Below, in pieces: positions 1,039-7,745 of a stretch of DNA of 41,333 nucleotides. Origin of the DNA: Gemmatimonadota bacterium (GTDB lineage: Bacteria; Gemmatimonadota; Gemmatimonadetes; Gemmatimonadales; Gemmatimonadaceae); assembly GCA_016871915.1 (NCBI GenBank), contig VHBP01000020.1, forward strand, positions 1-41,333. The letters are read 5' to 3'. The notes beneath the pieces are model-generated. The model saw only the letters and a list, made by a program, of their open reading frames with translations. It made no database searches and was not told the DNA's origin. Made by a program: the position numbers and the translations under genes. Each line of letters opens with the position of its first letter. Position 1 is the first letter of the stretch.

Positions 1039-1683
1039 ATGCATATCGTCGAAGGCTTTCTCCCAGTCCGACACGCGATTGGCTGGACCGTCGCTGCGCT
1101 GCCGTTCGTCGCCGTTTCGGCGCGCGCGGTAAGCCGGCGCGTGAACGCGGAGCCTGCGCAGCGTATGCGGCTGGCCGCGAGCGGAGCTTTCGTGCTGCTC
1201 CTCAGTTCGCTCAAGCTGCCCTCGCTCGCCGGAAGCTCGGCGCATCCCACAGGCACGGGGCTCGGCAGCGTACTCGTGGGGCAGGCGTGCATGCCGGTCA
1301 TGGCAGGCTTGGTGTTGCTGTTCCAAGCAGTGGTGCTGGCACACGGCGGCCTGACCACATGGGGAGCTAACGTGTTCTCGTTGGGTGTCGTGGGCCCGTG
1401 GGTGGCCATCGGCACGTTCCGGTTGGCCGAGCGCGTCGGGGCCAGCCCGCCGCTCGCCGTCGGCGTCGCCGCCGCTTGTGCGGACCTTGCGACCTATGCG
1501 TGCACGGCGATGCAACTCGCGTGGGCATTCCCAGGCGCCACAGGGGTAACGGACGCCTTCGTGCGGTTTGCCCTGGTGTTTGGCGTGACCCAACTGCCGT
1601 TGGCGGCCCTGGAGGGTGTGTTTAGCGCCGCGGTGTGGAAGTCCATCGCACCGCTGTCAGGCCGCCGTCCGGCCCTCGCGTGA
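1039..1683 (+). CDS. cbiM: Cobalt ECF transporter substrate-binding membrane component CbiM
   Basis: The 214-residue integral membrane protein begins MHIVEGFLP, the CbiM N-terminal signature in which the amino terminus and His2 help coordinate Co2+ inside the membrane. A second family motif, SSAHPTGTGLG, lies near residues 66-76, and several long apolar segments follow. CbiM is the substrate-specific S component of the CbiMNQO energy-coupling-factor cobalt importer. The start is fixed by the required Met-His pair and by a CGAGGAT site 5-11 bases upstream. It is the first gene of the operon and its stop overlaps the GTG of cbiN. A nickel-specific NikM is an alternative, but the presence of CbiN and of CobW and adenosyltransferase genes favours cobalt. 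Confidence 0.93.
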   Translation: MHIVEGFLPVRHAIGWTVAALPFVAVSARAVSRRVNAEPAQRMRLAASGAFVLLLSSLKLPSLAGSSAHPTGTGLGSVLVGQACMPVMAGLVLLFQAVVLAHGGLTTWGANVFSLGVVGPWVAIGTFRLAERVGASPPLAVGVAAACADLATYACTAMQLAWAFPGATGVTDAFVRFALVFGVTQLPLAALEGVFSAAVWKSIAPLSGRRPALA

Positions 1684-1973
1684 GCACGCGGTCGTGGCGG
1701 CTCCATGTGCGGGCTGCGTCGGCTGGCGCGGTTGCCGGCGCGCTGCTGACCCTGAGCGCGCACGTACTGGCGGGTGATCGTCGCGGCACGGACGATGCCG
1801 CGCGCGAGACGGCGACGCAGCTGGCACCGCAATTTGAGCCGTGGGCGCAACCGCTGATCGAGATCAGTGACGGCGCGCAGCTTCCGCTGTTTGTGGTACA
1901 GGGCATGCTCGGCGGCGCGCTGCTCAGCGTGAGCGTCGCGGTGCTGCGACGCGGGCGGTTCGATGCATCGTAG
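1680..1973 (+). CDS. cbiN: Cobalt ECF transporter accessory protein CbiN
   Basis: The 97-residue protein starts at a GTG that overlaps the cbiM stop codon (GTGA), so translation is probably coupled. It has an N-terminal membrane segment (about residues 8-26), a periplasmic loop and a second membrane segment (about 68-86). The loop contains a GTDDAARE stretch and a PWAQPLIEISDGAQLPLFVVQ region that corresponds to the CbiN signature before its second helix. CbiN is a small two-helix protein needed together with CbiM for cobalt uptake. Upstream in-frame codons exist but would lie well inside cbiM. Confidence 0.85.
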   Translation: MSTRSWRLHVRAASAGAVAGALLTLSAHVLAGDRRGTDDAARETATQLAPQFEPWAQPLIEISDGAQLPLFVVQGMLGGALLSVSVAVLRRGRFDAS

Positions 1974-2691
1974 CGGGCCGGTGCGGAGAGGCTGGCGACA
2001 GCGGCATCCGCTGCCCAAAGCGCTGCTCAGCGGCGGCTTGCTGGCGGCGGCATTGGCCTTGCCACACCCTGGTGGCCTGCTGGTCGCCCTCGTCGCTCCG
2101 GCACTGGCCGTTGGCCGTGCCGGCGTGAGAGTCCGGCAGTTCTGGCGCGCCGCACGAGCACCGCTGGCATTCGTGCTACTCGCGGCGCTAACCGTCGCAC
2201 CGAGTATGCAGGTCACAGCCAGCGGACTGACATTCGATGGGTTTAGTCTCGACGCCGCCTGGCCCCTCCTCACCCGCAGCCTTGGCGCGCTCGCGGCTAT
2301 GCTCCTGCTGACGCTGTCGACACCGCCGGCGGACCTGCTGCGCCTGCTGCAGCGCCTTGGCGTCCCTGTAGCAGTCGCGGAGGTCGGGCTGGGCATGCTC
2401 CGCTTGCTCGATATCCTTGGCGAGGAGCGGCAGCGGTTGCAGCAGGTCACGACACTGCGTGGGGGCACCGTGAGCACGGCGGCGCAGCGCCGGAGTGCGA
2501 CCGCCATGGCGAGCACGCTATTCGAACGCGGCATCCGGCGGGCGGACCGCCTCGGACTCGCGCTGCAGTTGCGGAGTCCGGAAGGCCTGCTTGCCACCCA
2601 GCCCGGGCACGACGCGTTGCGTGCGTCCGACGTTGCATGGTCCGCGGCGGTCGCGACGATTCCGCTGTTGATGTGGTGGCGCTGGTCATGA
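1963..2691 (+). CDS. cbiQ: Cobalt ECF transporter transmembrane T component CbiQ
   Basis: This 242-residue membrane protein overlaps the end of cbiN by 11 bases and is itself overlapped by the ATGA start of cbiO. It has five or so apolar segments and a cytoplasmic region around residues 105-205. That region includes a DLLRLLQRLGVP helix and an RRADRLGLALQLR segment, matching the coupling helices by which CbiQ transmits ATPase motion to CbiM. CbiQ is the scaffold of the CbiMNQO complex. Confidence 0.88.
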   Translation: MHRSGPVRRGWRQRHPLPKALLSGGLLAAALALPHPGGLLVALVAPALAVGRAGVRVRQFWRAARAPLAFVLLAALTVAPSMQVTASGLTFDGFSLDAAWPLLTRSLGALAAMLLLTLSTPPADLLRLLQRLGVPVAVAEVGLGMLRLLDILGEERQRLQQVTTLRGGTVSTAAQRRSATAMASTLFERGIRRADRLGLALQLRSPEGLLATQPGHDALRASDVAWSAAVATIPLLMWWRWS

Positions 2692-3902
2692 CCGCTGCGG
2701 ACCTTGTCTTCGACGGCGTCACGCTGCGCTACGGCGACACCGTGGGATGTCGTGACGTGTCGCTGCGCGCGACGGGCGGTCGCATCACCGTGTTGCTCGG
2801 TGAGAACGGATCGGGCAAGTCGAGCGTACTCGCGGCTGCGGCTGGGCTGCATCGGCTTGCGAGTGGCACCGTGCGCGCGGGCGACACGACGCTGGCATAC
2901 ACGCGTCGTGGGCTCGCGGACTGGCGACGACTTGTCGGTCTCGTGATGCACAATCCCGATGACCAACTTCTGGGCACAACCCTCTGCGAAGATGTGGCAT
3001 TCGGGCCGACAAACCTTGGCCTACCACCGCGAGAGATTGCGGCGCGCGTTGATCGTGTGCTCGCCGCACTTGACCTTGAGGAACTGCACGATGCCTCGCC
3101 CGCGTCGCTGAGCCACGGACAGAAGCTGCGCGCGGCGATCGCAGGGGTCATCGCGATGGACCCGCCAGTCCTGTTACTGGATGAACCCACCAGTGGCCTC
3201 GACACGGCAGCGACTACACAACTCGAGCATGTGCTACTCGAGATGCGCAACGCCGGGCGCTGCATTGTGTTAAGCACACACGACATCGAGTGTGCCTGGC
3301 GCATCGGTGACGACGCGGTCGTCCTGCAACATGGTGCCGTCGCCGCCGCTGGTGCCGTGCGCACACTTCTCGCTGACAGCGGGCGCTGCGCCACTCTGGG
3401 CTTGCGCCCACCGACCGCCGTGGCCGTCCGCGATGCACTGCAGGCGTGGGAACGTCCCCTGTCCGCCGCGATCGCCAACGAGACGTCATTCTCGCTAACG
3501 ACGAAGCGTCGCGCCTTGGCATCTGTCGTCGTGTGTGTGGGCTGCTGTTGCGGTCGCGTCGATCGTGGACGCCCAGCCGTGCCGGTGGATTGGCTCAAGG
3601 CAGAGTTCAAGCGCCGAAAACTGCTGCACCACGTGCACCTCACGATCAGCGGCTGCCTTGGCCCCTGCGACGTGCCGAACGTCGTCGCGATCGCCAGCGA
3701 CGCGGGCACCTTCTACCTCGGCCGCCTCGAGACGCAGCGCCACTTCGAGGCCCTCGTCGAATGGGCCAGCGACTCGTGGACCGCTGGCACACTGCTGCCG
3801 CTTCCACCGCTGCTCGCTCCGCTCCGCTTCGAACGCTTTGCAATGCCCGCCACCGCCGCGACGGCCGCAGCTGATGCGACTGTCACGGCCGTCATCCCCT
3901 AA
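2688..3902 (+). CDS. cbiO: Cobalt ECF ATPase CbiO fused to a thioredoxin-like [2Fe-2S] ferredoxin domain
   Basis: The 404-residue protein starts at an ATG overlapping the cbiQ stop (ATGA). Residues 5-235 are a full ABC ATPase: Walker A GENGSGKS near 38-45, Q-loop HNPDDQ near 89-94, signature LSHGQ near 142-146, Walker B VLLLDEP near 162-168, and a switch histidine in STHD. This domain energises cobalt import. After a linker, residues about 280-365 form a second domain with CVGCCCG (284-290) and GCLGPCD (323-329). That pattern is typical of thioredoxin-fold [2Fe-2S] ferredoxins of the COG3411/DUF1636 type. Ordinary CbiO has about 270 residues and lacks this part. The tail after 365 is Ala/Pro-rich. 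The fusion appears continuous with no frameshift. Confidence 0.9.
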
Positions 3903-3922
3903 CTGTATCCGCCGGAGTCTCC

Positions 3923-5266
3923 ATGCCCGACACCCAAGTCCCAGTTACCGTCCTCACCGGCTTCCTCGGCGCCGGCAAGACCACGTTGCTCAACCGCATT
4001 CTCACTGAACAGCACGGTAAGCGTATCGCCGTAATCGAGAATGAGTTCGGCGAGATCGGCATCGACAACAACCTGGTCATTAACGCTGAGGAAGAAGTCT
4101 TCGAGATGAACAACGGGTGCATTTGCTGTACCGTGCGCGGCGATCTCATTCGCATCCTTGGCAGCTTGATGCGCCGCCGCGAGAAGTTTGACTACATCCT
4201 CATCGAGACGACGGGGCTGGCTGACCCAGCGCCGGTGGCGCAGACGTTCTTCGTCGATGATGAGATCCAGAGCAAGCTTCGGCTCGATGGTGTCGTCACT
4301 GTGGTCGACGCGAAGCACGTGTGGATGCACCTTGAATCGTCCAGCGAGTGCCAGGAGCAGATAGCCTTTGCCGATATGATCATTCTGAACAAGATCGACC
4401 TGGTGCCGGCTGACCAGGTCGAGGTGCTGGAGCAGCGCGTGCAGGCGATGAACGCCATGGCGCGCGTCGTCCGCGCCAAGGACGCGGTCGTGGACATCCC
4501 GGCCCTGCTCGACATCGGCGGCTTCGACCTCGAGCGGGCATTGAAGGTAAATCCGGCCTTTCTCGAGCCGGAATATCCGTTCGAATGGGCGGGCGAGTAC
4601 GCGCTCATGGCCGGGCGCCATGTGCTGACGCTGCAAGTGGGCCCTGACCCCGCGATGGAACTGCTGTTCCTCCGCTACGCTGGGGACGGCGACGGCATTG
4701 CCGCGACGACGGAACACGCGGCTCGGCGCTTCTCGTACGAGACCGTCCCTGTCGGGAGCGGCGGCAGTCTCGCGCCGAGCGACACGCCGGTGAGGCTGCA
4801 CTTGGCGCAGAAGGGTGCGACGACCGTCTACCTCGACATACCGAGCGACGGGCGGTATGTGCTGTTTACCGAGCACCGACCGGAGGAATTCGCTGCGACG
4901 TTTGAGGCACCGAGCGGCGCAGTCGCATCGCTGCGCGAACATGTGTTCAACCCTGAACACGAGCACGATGACGAGGTGACATCCGTGGGTCTCGAATCGA
5001 AGCGCCCACTCGACGGGAAGAAGCTCAACGCATGGTTCTCAAAGATCCTGATGGAGAAGGGTGTCGACATCTTCCGGATGAAGGGCATCGTCGCCATTGA
5101 CCAGGAGCCGGAGCGCTTCGTGTTCCAAGGGGTGCACATGCTGTTCGACGGCCGACCGGGAGGGCGGTGGCAAACGGATGAGCCGCGGCACAGCCAGTTG
5201 GTGTTCATTGGGCGCAACCTCGATCGCGCTGAACTGGAGACGGGGTTCCAAGCGTGTCTCGCCTAG
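3923..5266 (+). CDS. CobW-type G3E GTPase, probable metallochaperone
   Basis: The 447-residue protein belongs to the COG0523/CobW branch of the G3E P-loop GTPases. The Walker A motif GFLGAGKTT spans residues 13-21, the metal-binding CICC (CxCC) motif lies at 66-69, the ETTGLADP switch is near 104-111, and the NKID guanine-specificity motif is near 154-157. The C-terminal CobW domain covers about 345-447, preceded by a His/Asp-rich stretch (NPEHEHDDE) that may bind metal. Residues about 205-340 form an extra middle region that many shorter family members lack. Such proteins use GTP to deliver Co2+, Zn2+ or other metals to client proteins. The gene sits 20 bases after cbiO, which supports a role with cobalt. 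The exact client is unknown. Confidence 0.88.
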
Positions 5267-6285
5267 CTGACGCCGCCGCCGAGCGCGTGTGGGGCTTGGC
5301 GATTCCTGAGTTTCCTCGCGCCTTGGCGTGGCTTGCGCCGCAGGGGCGGCGGGTGGCGGTGCTGAGCAGTGAAGGCACGCTGGCGGCCATCGATACCGTG
5401 GCTGGCGATGGCCTCTGGCGCACGGCGGCGCATCAGGGCGCGTCTGCACTCGCGGTGTCTCCGGACGGCCGCATCGTCGCGACGGGCGGCGAGGATGGCA
5501 TGCTGCGCCTCTGGAATGCCGAGGATGGCACGGCCATCGCCGAGGTTCGCGCCCGCGGGTGGGTCGAGCGAATTGCGTGGACACCCGACAGTCGGAGGGT
5601 GGCCTGCTCGGCGGGGCGCTGCGTCTGGCTCTGTTCGGCGACCGGCGAGATCGAGCGCGTCCTCGACGGGCATCTGTCGACGATTGCGAGCCTCGCGTGG
5701 CGTGCCGACGGGGCGCAGCTTGCGGTCGCGCACTATGGCGGTGTCACGCTCTGGGAGCCGGAATTGGAGGCGCCGCGACGCATGCTTGAGCGGAAGGGGT
5801 CGATCCTCGACGTCGCGTGGCATCCGAAGGGCCGGTGGCTCGCCGCCGGATGCCAAGACCAAGCGGTGCAGCTCTGGAATCTTCGCGCCGCTAAGCACCT
5901 CTACATGTCAGGATACATGACCAAGCTCTCGTGTGTGGCCTGGGACCGGGACGGGCGCTACCTCGCGACCGCCGGCGGCCCCGGCGCAACCGTTTGGGAC
6001 TTTGCAGGCGCCGGGCCAGAGGGCAGTCGCCCGCTCTCGTTGCATGGTCATGAGAACCTGGTCACGGCGCTTGCATGGCGGCCGACAGGAACCGCGATTG
6101 CCGTTGGCGATGCCGATGGCCGAACACAGCTGTGGCGCATCAATGGCAAGGCCGCCGATCGCCGGGCGCGCTTGGAGTGTGGCGGCGGCGTTGCCGCGCT
6201 GGTGTGGTCCCCCGACGGCGAGATGCTGGTTGTGGCCAGCGAGGACGGGAACATCGATGGATTCATCGTACGGAGGCAGGGGTAA
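5254..6285 (+). CDS. WD40-repeat protein linked to the CobW GTPase
   Basis: This 343-residue protein starts at a GTG that overlaps the cobW-like gene by 13 bases. It consists almost entirely of WD40-type blades, with repeated [20 protein letters not shown]-like units ending in LW, VW or VWD around residues 87, 125, 169, 210, 248 and 294. It probably folds into a seven-bladed propeller, an interaction platform without catalytic residues. There is no signal peptide, so it should act in the cytoplasm. The overlap with the GTPase gene suggests that the two proteins work together. Its role in metal handling is not established from the sequence. Confidence 0.82.
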
Positions 6286-6288
6286 GCG

Positions 6289-6666
6289 ATGACGACGTGG
6301 AATCTCAGCGGAACGGAGCGCCTCGTGTTGCTCTGCAACGGCGACACCTGCATGAGCCGCGGCGGTGACGCCGTGACCGTCGCGCTGCGGCGCGCGCTGC
6401 AGGCGGAGGGGCTGGATCCGCAGGTGCACACGGCACGGACACGCTGCCTGGGACGCTGCGATGATGGCTGCACGGTGGTCGTGCAGCCCGACAATGTGTG
6501 GTACCGCACCGTGACGCCAGACTCGGCCGCGCAGATCGTCACCGAGCACTTGGTGGCCAACCGCCCGGTTGCGCCGCTGGTGAGTTTCCGGCCTGCAGAA
6601 GAGGGTGGCTTGATGCAGGTCGGAGGCGTCACCGACGGCAAAATAAAGCCGGGACTCGAGCGGTGA
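6289..6666 (+). CDS. Thioredoxin-like [2Fe-2S] ferredoxin family protein
   Basis: The 125-residue protein has LLCNGDTC near residues 14-21 and RCLGRCDDGC near 52-61. This is the four-cysteine arrangement of thioredoxin-fold [2Fe-2S] ferredoxins (COG3411; also the fold of the NuoE C-terminal domain). The WYRTVTPDSAAQIVTEHL segment resembles the final strand and helix of that fold. It starts three bases after the WD40 gene, and its stop overlaps the GTG of the permease gene. It is the second copy of this fold in the operon, after the one fused to CbiO. It could pass electrons or sense metal or redox state; neither is shown. Confidence 0.8.
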   Translation: MTTWNLSGTERLVLLCNGDTCMSRGGDAVTVALRRALQAEGLDPQVHTARTRCLGRCDDGCTVVVQPDNVWYRTVTPDSAAQIVTEHLVANRPVAPLVSFRPAEEGGLMQVGGVTDGKIKPGLER

Positions 6667-7745
6667 CCATCGGCGCGATTGTGAGCGAATTCGGATTGCG
6701 GCTTATCGCAAATCTACTCGAGGTCGCGCCATCGCTCGTGCTCGCCTACGCCATCACGGGACTGGCTAGCGAGTTTGTCCCAGCTGCGTCGCTCGCGTGG
6801 CTGGGGAAAGGGTCATCCTTCGTTCGTGCATTGAAGGGTATGGCAATCGCTGCGCCGATGCCGCTGTGCTCCTGCTCCGCCGTGCCGCTCTTTCAGCGGC
6901 TCAGTGCTGTGCCGGGCGGCGGCGTCGCCGCGTTCGCGTTCCTGCTTGCCGGGCCTGAGCTCGGCTTGGACTCGGTGTTGATCTCGATTCCGCTCCTCGG
7001 CGCACCCATGACTGCGCTCCGCACCGCCGCCGCGGTGCTGGTCGCGGTGGTCGTCGCACTGATCCTTGGGCGCGCCGTGGGTGACGCGGCACCCGTGCCG
7101 ACAGGTCGGCGGGCGATGCCCGTCACGACGCCAATCGCTCCACCAGTGCGGGAGCGCATGCGGCGCGCGTTCCACTTCGGATTCGAAGAGTCGCTCGGGC
7201 ACACCTTGCTGTGGATCTTGGCTGGATTGCTAGTAGCGGCACTCGTGGCCCCGACGCCAGCGGCGGCCACTGTCGCCTCGTGGCCGACGCCGCTGCAAAT
7301 CCTTGCTCTCGCTGCCCTCGGGATGCCGACGTACGTCTGCGCCAGCGCGGCGACGCCACTGGTCGCGACGCTTCTCGCCAGCGGCGTGTCGCCGGGCGCG
7401 GGTATTGCATTCTTGATCGCCGGGCCGGCGACGAACCTCACGACGTTCGCGCTGGTCGCGCGCTGCTATGGCCGACCGGCCGCACGTCTGTTCACGGCGT
7501 CGGTGCTGTTGACCGTGGTCGGTGTCGCATGGGCGGCTGACAGCGCGGCACGTCGGCTTGACGTCGAAGCGCCCCTCGCCAGCAGTGCTGTGGTCGAGAG
7601 TGCATCGGTGTGGCAACTGGTCGCGGTCGCGCTGCTTGGCATCGCGCTGTCACGGCTCATCATCCGCCGCGGCTGGCGACACTTCGTGGCAGAACTTCGG
7701 GCGCCGTTTGCGACAGTGCCGCATGCCGACGCGCCACGGCTGTAG
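6663..7745 (+). CDS. ArsP/SO_0444-like permease, probable metal or metalloid efflux
   Basis: The 360-residue membrane protein starts at GTG in a GTGA overlap with the ferredoxin gene. It has about eight to ten membrane segments arranged in two halves. The first half carries the conserved PLCSCSAVPLF motif (near residues 63-73), and the second carries GMPTYVCASAATPL and AGPATNLTTF. These are hallmarks of the DUF318/ArsP permease family and the SO_0444 Cu/Zn efflux group. The paired cysteines of CSC are likely to line the path. As the last gene of an operon that begins with a cobalt importer, it may export excess metal. The substrate is inferred from context only. Confidence 0.8.
   Translation: MTIGAIVSEFGLRLIANLLEVAPSLVLAYAITGLASEFVPAASLAWLGKGSSFVRALKGMAIAAPMPLCSCSAVPLFQRLSAVPGGGVAAFAFLLAGPELGLDSVLISIPLLGAPMTALRTAAAVLVAVVVALILGRAVGDAAPVPTGRRAMPVTTPIAPPVRERMRRAFHFGFEESLGHTLLWILAGLLVAALVAPTPAAATVASWPTPLQILALAALGMPTYVCASAATPLVATLLASGVSPGAGIAFLIAGPATNLTTFALVARCYGRPAARLFTASVLLTVVGVAWAADSAARRLDVEAPLASSAVVESASVWQLVAVALLGIALSRLIIRRGWRHFVAELRAPFATVPHADAPRL

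Follow-up and report, generated by a model that had tools for sequence, protein, structure and literature searches.

Apart from CobW, little is settled about how imported cobalt reaches its target without zinc or nickel displacing it. Among the described systems closest to the locus studied here, CbiMNQO ECF transporters import cobalt or nickel, and COG0523 GTPases of subfamily 5, which have a WD40 neighbour, have been linked to zinc and zinc limitation (Haas 2009, PMC2770081). DUF1636 (PF07845), a short cysteine-rich domain, was earlier assigned to the thioredoxin-like [2Fe-2S] ferredoxins (PMC4520260). No paper on a fusion of CbiO with a ferredoxin was found in the literature. In this study, we analysed a stretch of 41,333 nt from a Gemmatimonadota bacterium (assembly GCA_016871915.1, contig VHBP01000020.1), referred to as the window. 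It revealed a tightly packed run of plus-strand genes (1039–7745; Table 1) with a complete CbiM, CbiN, CbiQ and CbiO operon, in which CbiM clears its equivalog cut-off (TIGR00123) as in known CbiMNQO importers. In contrast to these, CbiO carries an extra C-terminal domain, and genes for a COG0523 GTPase, a WD40 protein, a ferredoxin and an ArsP-like permease follow in the same operon. This ferredoxin is a second, canonical one of the thioredoxin-like [2Fe-2S] type (6289–6666). Within the window, no B12 riboswitch was detected upstream of cbiM, the single one of the genome being located on another contig.

Table 1. Features of the cbiMNQO operon in the window and of GCCCG–CobN genes at other loci (prefixed L)
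Feature	Position	Strand	Evidence
cbiM, ECF S component	1039–1683	+	TIGR00123 212 bits vs cut-off 184
cbiN	1635–1973	+	PF02553 27.7 bits vs cut-off 25
cbiQ, ECF T component	1963–2691	+	PF02361 E=2e-21
CbiO ATPase module of fused gene	2688–3434	+	PF00005 / TIGR01166; coding frame by codon model
Junction, shortened CbiO C-terminal tail into domain	3435–3497	+	62 nt shorter than G235 between two anchors
TAA in +1 frame, possible cbiO stop relic	3496–3498	+	Codon model: frame disfavoured by 11.8 nats
GCCCG-family domain, predicted thioredoxin-like [2Fe-2S] ferredoxin fold, C-x2-CCC and C-x3-C	3498–3839	+	HMM, conserved cysteines, predicted fold
C-terminal tail and stop codon of fused gene, low-confidence	3840–3902	+	pLDDT mostly <50
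COG0523 GTPase (cobW family, GCICC motif)	3923–5266	+	PF02492 E=1e-64; TIGR02475 209 bits vs cut-off 332
WD40 beta-propeller protein, conserved partner of COG0523 gene	5254–6285	+	
Separate canonical thioredoxin-like [2Fe-2S] ferredoxin, C-x4-C and C-x3-C	6289–6666	+	PF01257 30.7 bits vs cut-off 24.8
ArsP-like / SO_0444-type permease, start approximate	6660–7745	+	PF03773 E=6e-26; NF033936 167 bits, cut-off 300 missed
GCCCG–CobN cobaltochelatases (Granulicella, Deinococcus, Spirosoma)	L138:5875–10257, L139:6010–10305, L140:5986–10275		

The fused gene is one open frame of 404 aa from the ATG at 2688 (alternative upstream ATG at 2637) to the stop at 3902, and, as observed in the initial annotation, it reads from the ATPase into a cysteine-rich domain with no stop between the two parts. 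Residues 1 to about 235 were identified as an ABC/ECF ATPase (PF00005, E=5e-24, 85.9 bits against a cut-off of 25; TIGR01166 cbiO, E=5e-58) with the usual ATPase motifs on inspection of the sequence. Though the NCBIfam cbiO cut-off was narrowly missed (195.6 vs 211.8 bits), the operon context with CbiM, CbiN and CbiQ supports a CbiO function, in agreement with the earlier description of this part as an ECF ATPase. Compared to the closest relative, G235, the window revealed a net deletion of 62 nt between two conserved anchors, a shortening that brought both genes into one frame; with it, the cbiO stop and the start of the second gene are lost.

In all 14 relatives with cbiO directly before the gene for this domain, the two are separate genes, overlapping by 4 nt (ATGA, GTGA or TTGA) in 11 of the 13 measured loci and by 10 nt in the other two. 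The fusion was seen in one genome only, a draft assembly of 120 contigs, while the gene is absent from all 11 genomes of the same genus. How often CbiO carries such a tail, a question raised in the initial annotation, was surveyed in the 80 loci retained (see below) and in as many as 395 genomes from the phylum, a subset of known CbiO, where the fusion came up once. An assembly or sequencing error, with both genes in reality separate and overlapping as in the 14 unfused loci, would account for a singleton in a draft genome and for the TAA at 3496–3498 in the +1 frame. We consider such an error unlikely, since a single-base error would need to hit a stretch of about 20 nt, the ancestral start of the second gene has no start codon (the nearest, TTG at 3516, lies within the domain), and the fused frame scores best as coding sequence across the joint. 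For positions 3434–3498, a codon model trained on the neighbouring genes placed this frame ahead of the TAA frame by 11.8 nats and of the third frame by 3.5; as a control, 740 segments taken from the very genes used for training were scored, and the true frame came first in 98.8% of them. Judged from this one draft assembly, the fusion is quite probably a genuine feature of a living genome. Its domain tail is under purifying selection compared to the closest relative (pN/pS 0.26, a rough ratio with synonymous sites near saturation).

With an alignment of four sequences as query, 84,980 species genomes yielded 150 relatives of the domain, and 80 of these were retained; viral contigs yielded no relative. 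Alignment of 70 relatives with the window revealed a distinct family with the pattern C-x2-CCCGRTDKGxPxVPxDWLK..., in which six cysteines (C14, C17–19, C54 and C58 in domain numbering) are conserved in at least 97% of the 71 sequences. GCCCG family is our own label for this otherwise unnamed family; CbiY was rejected as a name, being a BluB-like flavoprotein. Residues 271–384 (nt 3498–3839) matched the family HMM with E=1.6e-51, but since the HMM was built from the window and the 70 relatives, this match marks the limits of the domain and is no proof of it. The conservation of the cysteine pattern in the aligned relatives and the purifying selection put the domain far beyond chance. Both motifs quoted in the initial annotation are present (CVGCCCG at 3534–3554, GCLGPCD at 3651–3671), and its span of 3525–3790 takes in the conserved core but stops short of the C-terminal end of the domain. 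The domain was described there as DUF1636-like, but membership was rejected in favour of a separate family, as only about 21 bits were reached against the Pfam cut-off of 31.6 (range 18.9–21.3 bits). Both are short, cysteine-rich and thioredoxin-like with sub-threshold sequence similarity, seen in 17 of 62 members at E≤0.01, whereas the GCCCG family is set apart by C-x2-CCC and by its own long conserved core.

The AlphaFold2 model of the domain had a pLDDT of 82 with core blocks above 90; one row of the 62-sequence input alignment (L101) is probably out of register, which should matter little given the 61 others. The model matched thioredoxin-like [2Fe-2S] ferredoxins best, with Z 11.1 and an rmsd of 2.2 Å across 92 residues for 1M2A from Aquifex, and Foldseek against the PDB resulted in only two matches at E≤0.001, the thioredoxin-like ferredoxin 9jn8 and HydB. 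The domain is therefore predicted to adopt the thioredoxin-like [2Fe-2S] ferredoxin fold, as had been proposed for the tail of CbiO. Cysteines sufficient for the four ligands of a cluster are present in two loops (C14, C17–19, C54, C58), from which the ligands of the putative cluster would be drawn. The predicted fold and the second motif, C-x3-C, are shared with Aquifex ferredoxin (1M2A), FeSI (5ABR) and NuoE, whereas the first motif is C-x2-CCC, resulting in six conserved cysteines rather than four, and the family falls below NCBIfam cut-offs. A predicted ferredoxin fold with the cysteines needed, next to a canonical [2Fe-2S] ferredoxin in the same operon, would also suit an iron-sulfur or redox gate, in which oxidation or loss of the cluster alters ATPase activity, so that import tracks iron-sulfur or redox status with no handover of metal. 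For such a gate, which we regard as rather improbable, the extra conserved cysteines of the CCC motif are superfluous, and the fusions and gene neighbourhoods of the family suit metal or corrin chemistry better.

In a plasmid search, CobN with an N-terminal GCCCG domain came up in Granulicella, in Spirosoma and in five records from Deinococcus (four annotated as CobN, one without annotation), and thus in Acidobacteriota, Bacteroidota and Deinococcota. Three of these fusions were confirmed by HMM (E ~1e-28). The same kind of domain is fused to a cobalt protein in both settings, though the partner is a cobaltochelatase there and an importer ATPase here. In Granulicella, the gene comes after CbtB-CbtA, in Deinococcus ficus after a gene annotated as nickel transporter. 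Within the fetched flanks of the 80 loci, a COG0523 gene was found in 43, a WD40 gene in 39 and cbiM in 16; a COG0523 neighbour also occurs at archaeal loci, including Poseidoniales. In Firmicutes and Planctomycetes, the GCCCG gene is located beside cbiA and cbiG, cobO, cobT, NicO transporters or a chelatase-like gene; for these neighbours and those in Acidobacteriota (see below), ten identities come from Pfam and the remainder were read from their own sequence. It is these unrelated transporters, CobO and CbiA, together with CobN, that fit a redox gate less well. The cobalt and B12 neighbourhoods across phyla and the CobN fusions favour metal handling over generic redox sensing, and with importer ATPase and cobalt chelatase as two independent fusion partners, metal handling appears to be the best reading.

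The CobN fusion and, in Firmicutes, the vicinity of cbiA, cobO, cobT and nitroreductase-like genes would likewise suit a dedicated ferredoxin of the B12 pathway, acting as reductant for cobalt either in corrinoids or at the chelatase. This role as electron donor is very unlikely in our view, as the family occurs in Gemmatimonadota genomes without CobO or a convincing CbiA or CobN, and adjoins importers and COG0523–WD40 pairs where other B12 genes are absent. PF07685 matches in Gemmatimonadota were short and partial, and were rejected as CbiA.

With regard to the recipient and the metal, the initial annotation had taken the adjoining gene for CobW. A cobW-family COG0523 GTPase does adjoin the fused gene, but its CobW identity was rejected based on the TIGR02475 equivalog (208.9 vs a cut-off of 332.1 bits). 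By its WD40 neighbour (5254–6285), it resembles Haas subfamily 5; the order of COG0523 gene and WD40 gene is the same (PMC2770081), whereas CbiMNQO and the GCCCG gene are found here in place of znuABC. Searches of the genome revealed no znuA, no CobO and no CobN. A CobN-like gene was rejected as such and turned out to be BchH, a magnesium chelatase subunit, on contig C37 of the genome (L136, L137); judging by this gene, the organism probably is, or once was, a phototrophic member of the Gemmatimonadota. Since CobO and CobN are missing, a role at CobN cannot apply to the fused protein here and cobalt for B12 synthesis cannot be assumed. Considering also the missed CobW cut-off, the zinc-linked subfamily and the missing znuA, the metal of the operon could be cobalt, zinc or nickel.

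Altogether, cbiO and a GCCCG ferredoxin-fold gene would ancestrally have been separate and tightly overlapping, and loss of the stop of the one and the start of the other would have joined them, giving an importer ATPase with its former partner on the C-terminus. There, the GCCCG domain is most likely a cytoplasmic cysteine-rich metal-handling module at the ATPase face of the importer. It would receive or gate the incoming Co(II), or a different divalent metal, perhaps by way of a [2Fe-2S] cluster or next to one, and might pass the metal on to the COG0523 GTPase of the adjoining gene. Organisms that make B12 would use this module directly for inserting cobalt, given its fusion to CobN there. 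While the open frame, cysteines, predicted fold, neighbourhoods and CobN fusions come directly from the data, we infer that the fusion is genuine in the living genome, that a metal or cluster is bound, which metal it is and in which direction it moves. As a whole, we give this explanation about an even chance. The earlier idea of a metal handover thereby gains circumstantial support from the CobN fusions and the several types of adjoining cobalt importers, but CobW as recipient was not borne out. A broader and more doubtful possibility is that GCCCG proteins are an unrecognised bacterial and archaeal cobalt metallochaperone, which would dock at importers (CbiMNQO, NicO, CbtA) and deliver to CobN or COG0523 GTPases, with the window and the CobN fusions as two ends of one delivery line. 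The fusion itself is one singleton variant; of broader interest is the family, which is unnamed and linked to cobalt. Small and conserved, and joined in one lineage to an importer ATPase but in three phyla to a cobaltochelatase, its domain offers a concrete candidate for the route from importer to target, and since free-standing versions occur in culturable bacteria, the idea is directly testable.

The regions upstream of cbiM or of the GCCCG gene, searched for a Zur-type palindrome, had no motif in common and nothing convincing in the window; AT-rich dyads were located there in L049, L058 and L084, with a weaker one in L020. In Acidobacteriota (L041, L042, L075), the GCCCG gene is located behind a large gene, which in L041 encodes a P-type ATPase (Pfam) with a His-rich N-terminus, its counterparts in the other two being of similar length with a similar beginning. 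A related cluster, L015 (G055), is suggestive of a metal-limitation island, with four COG0523 genes packed into 19 kb.
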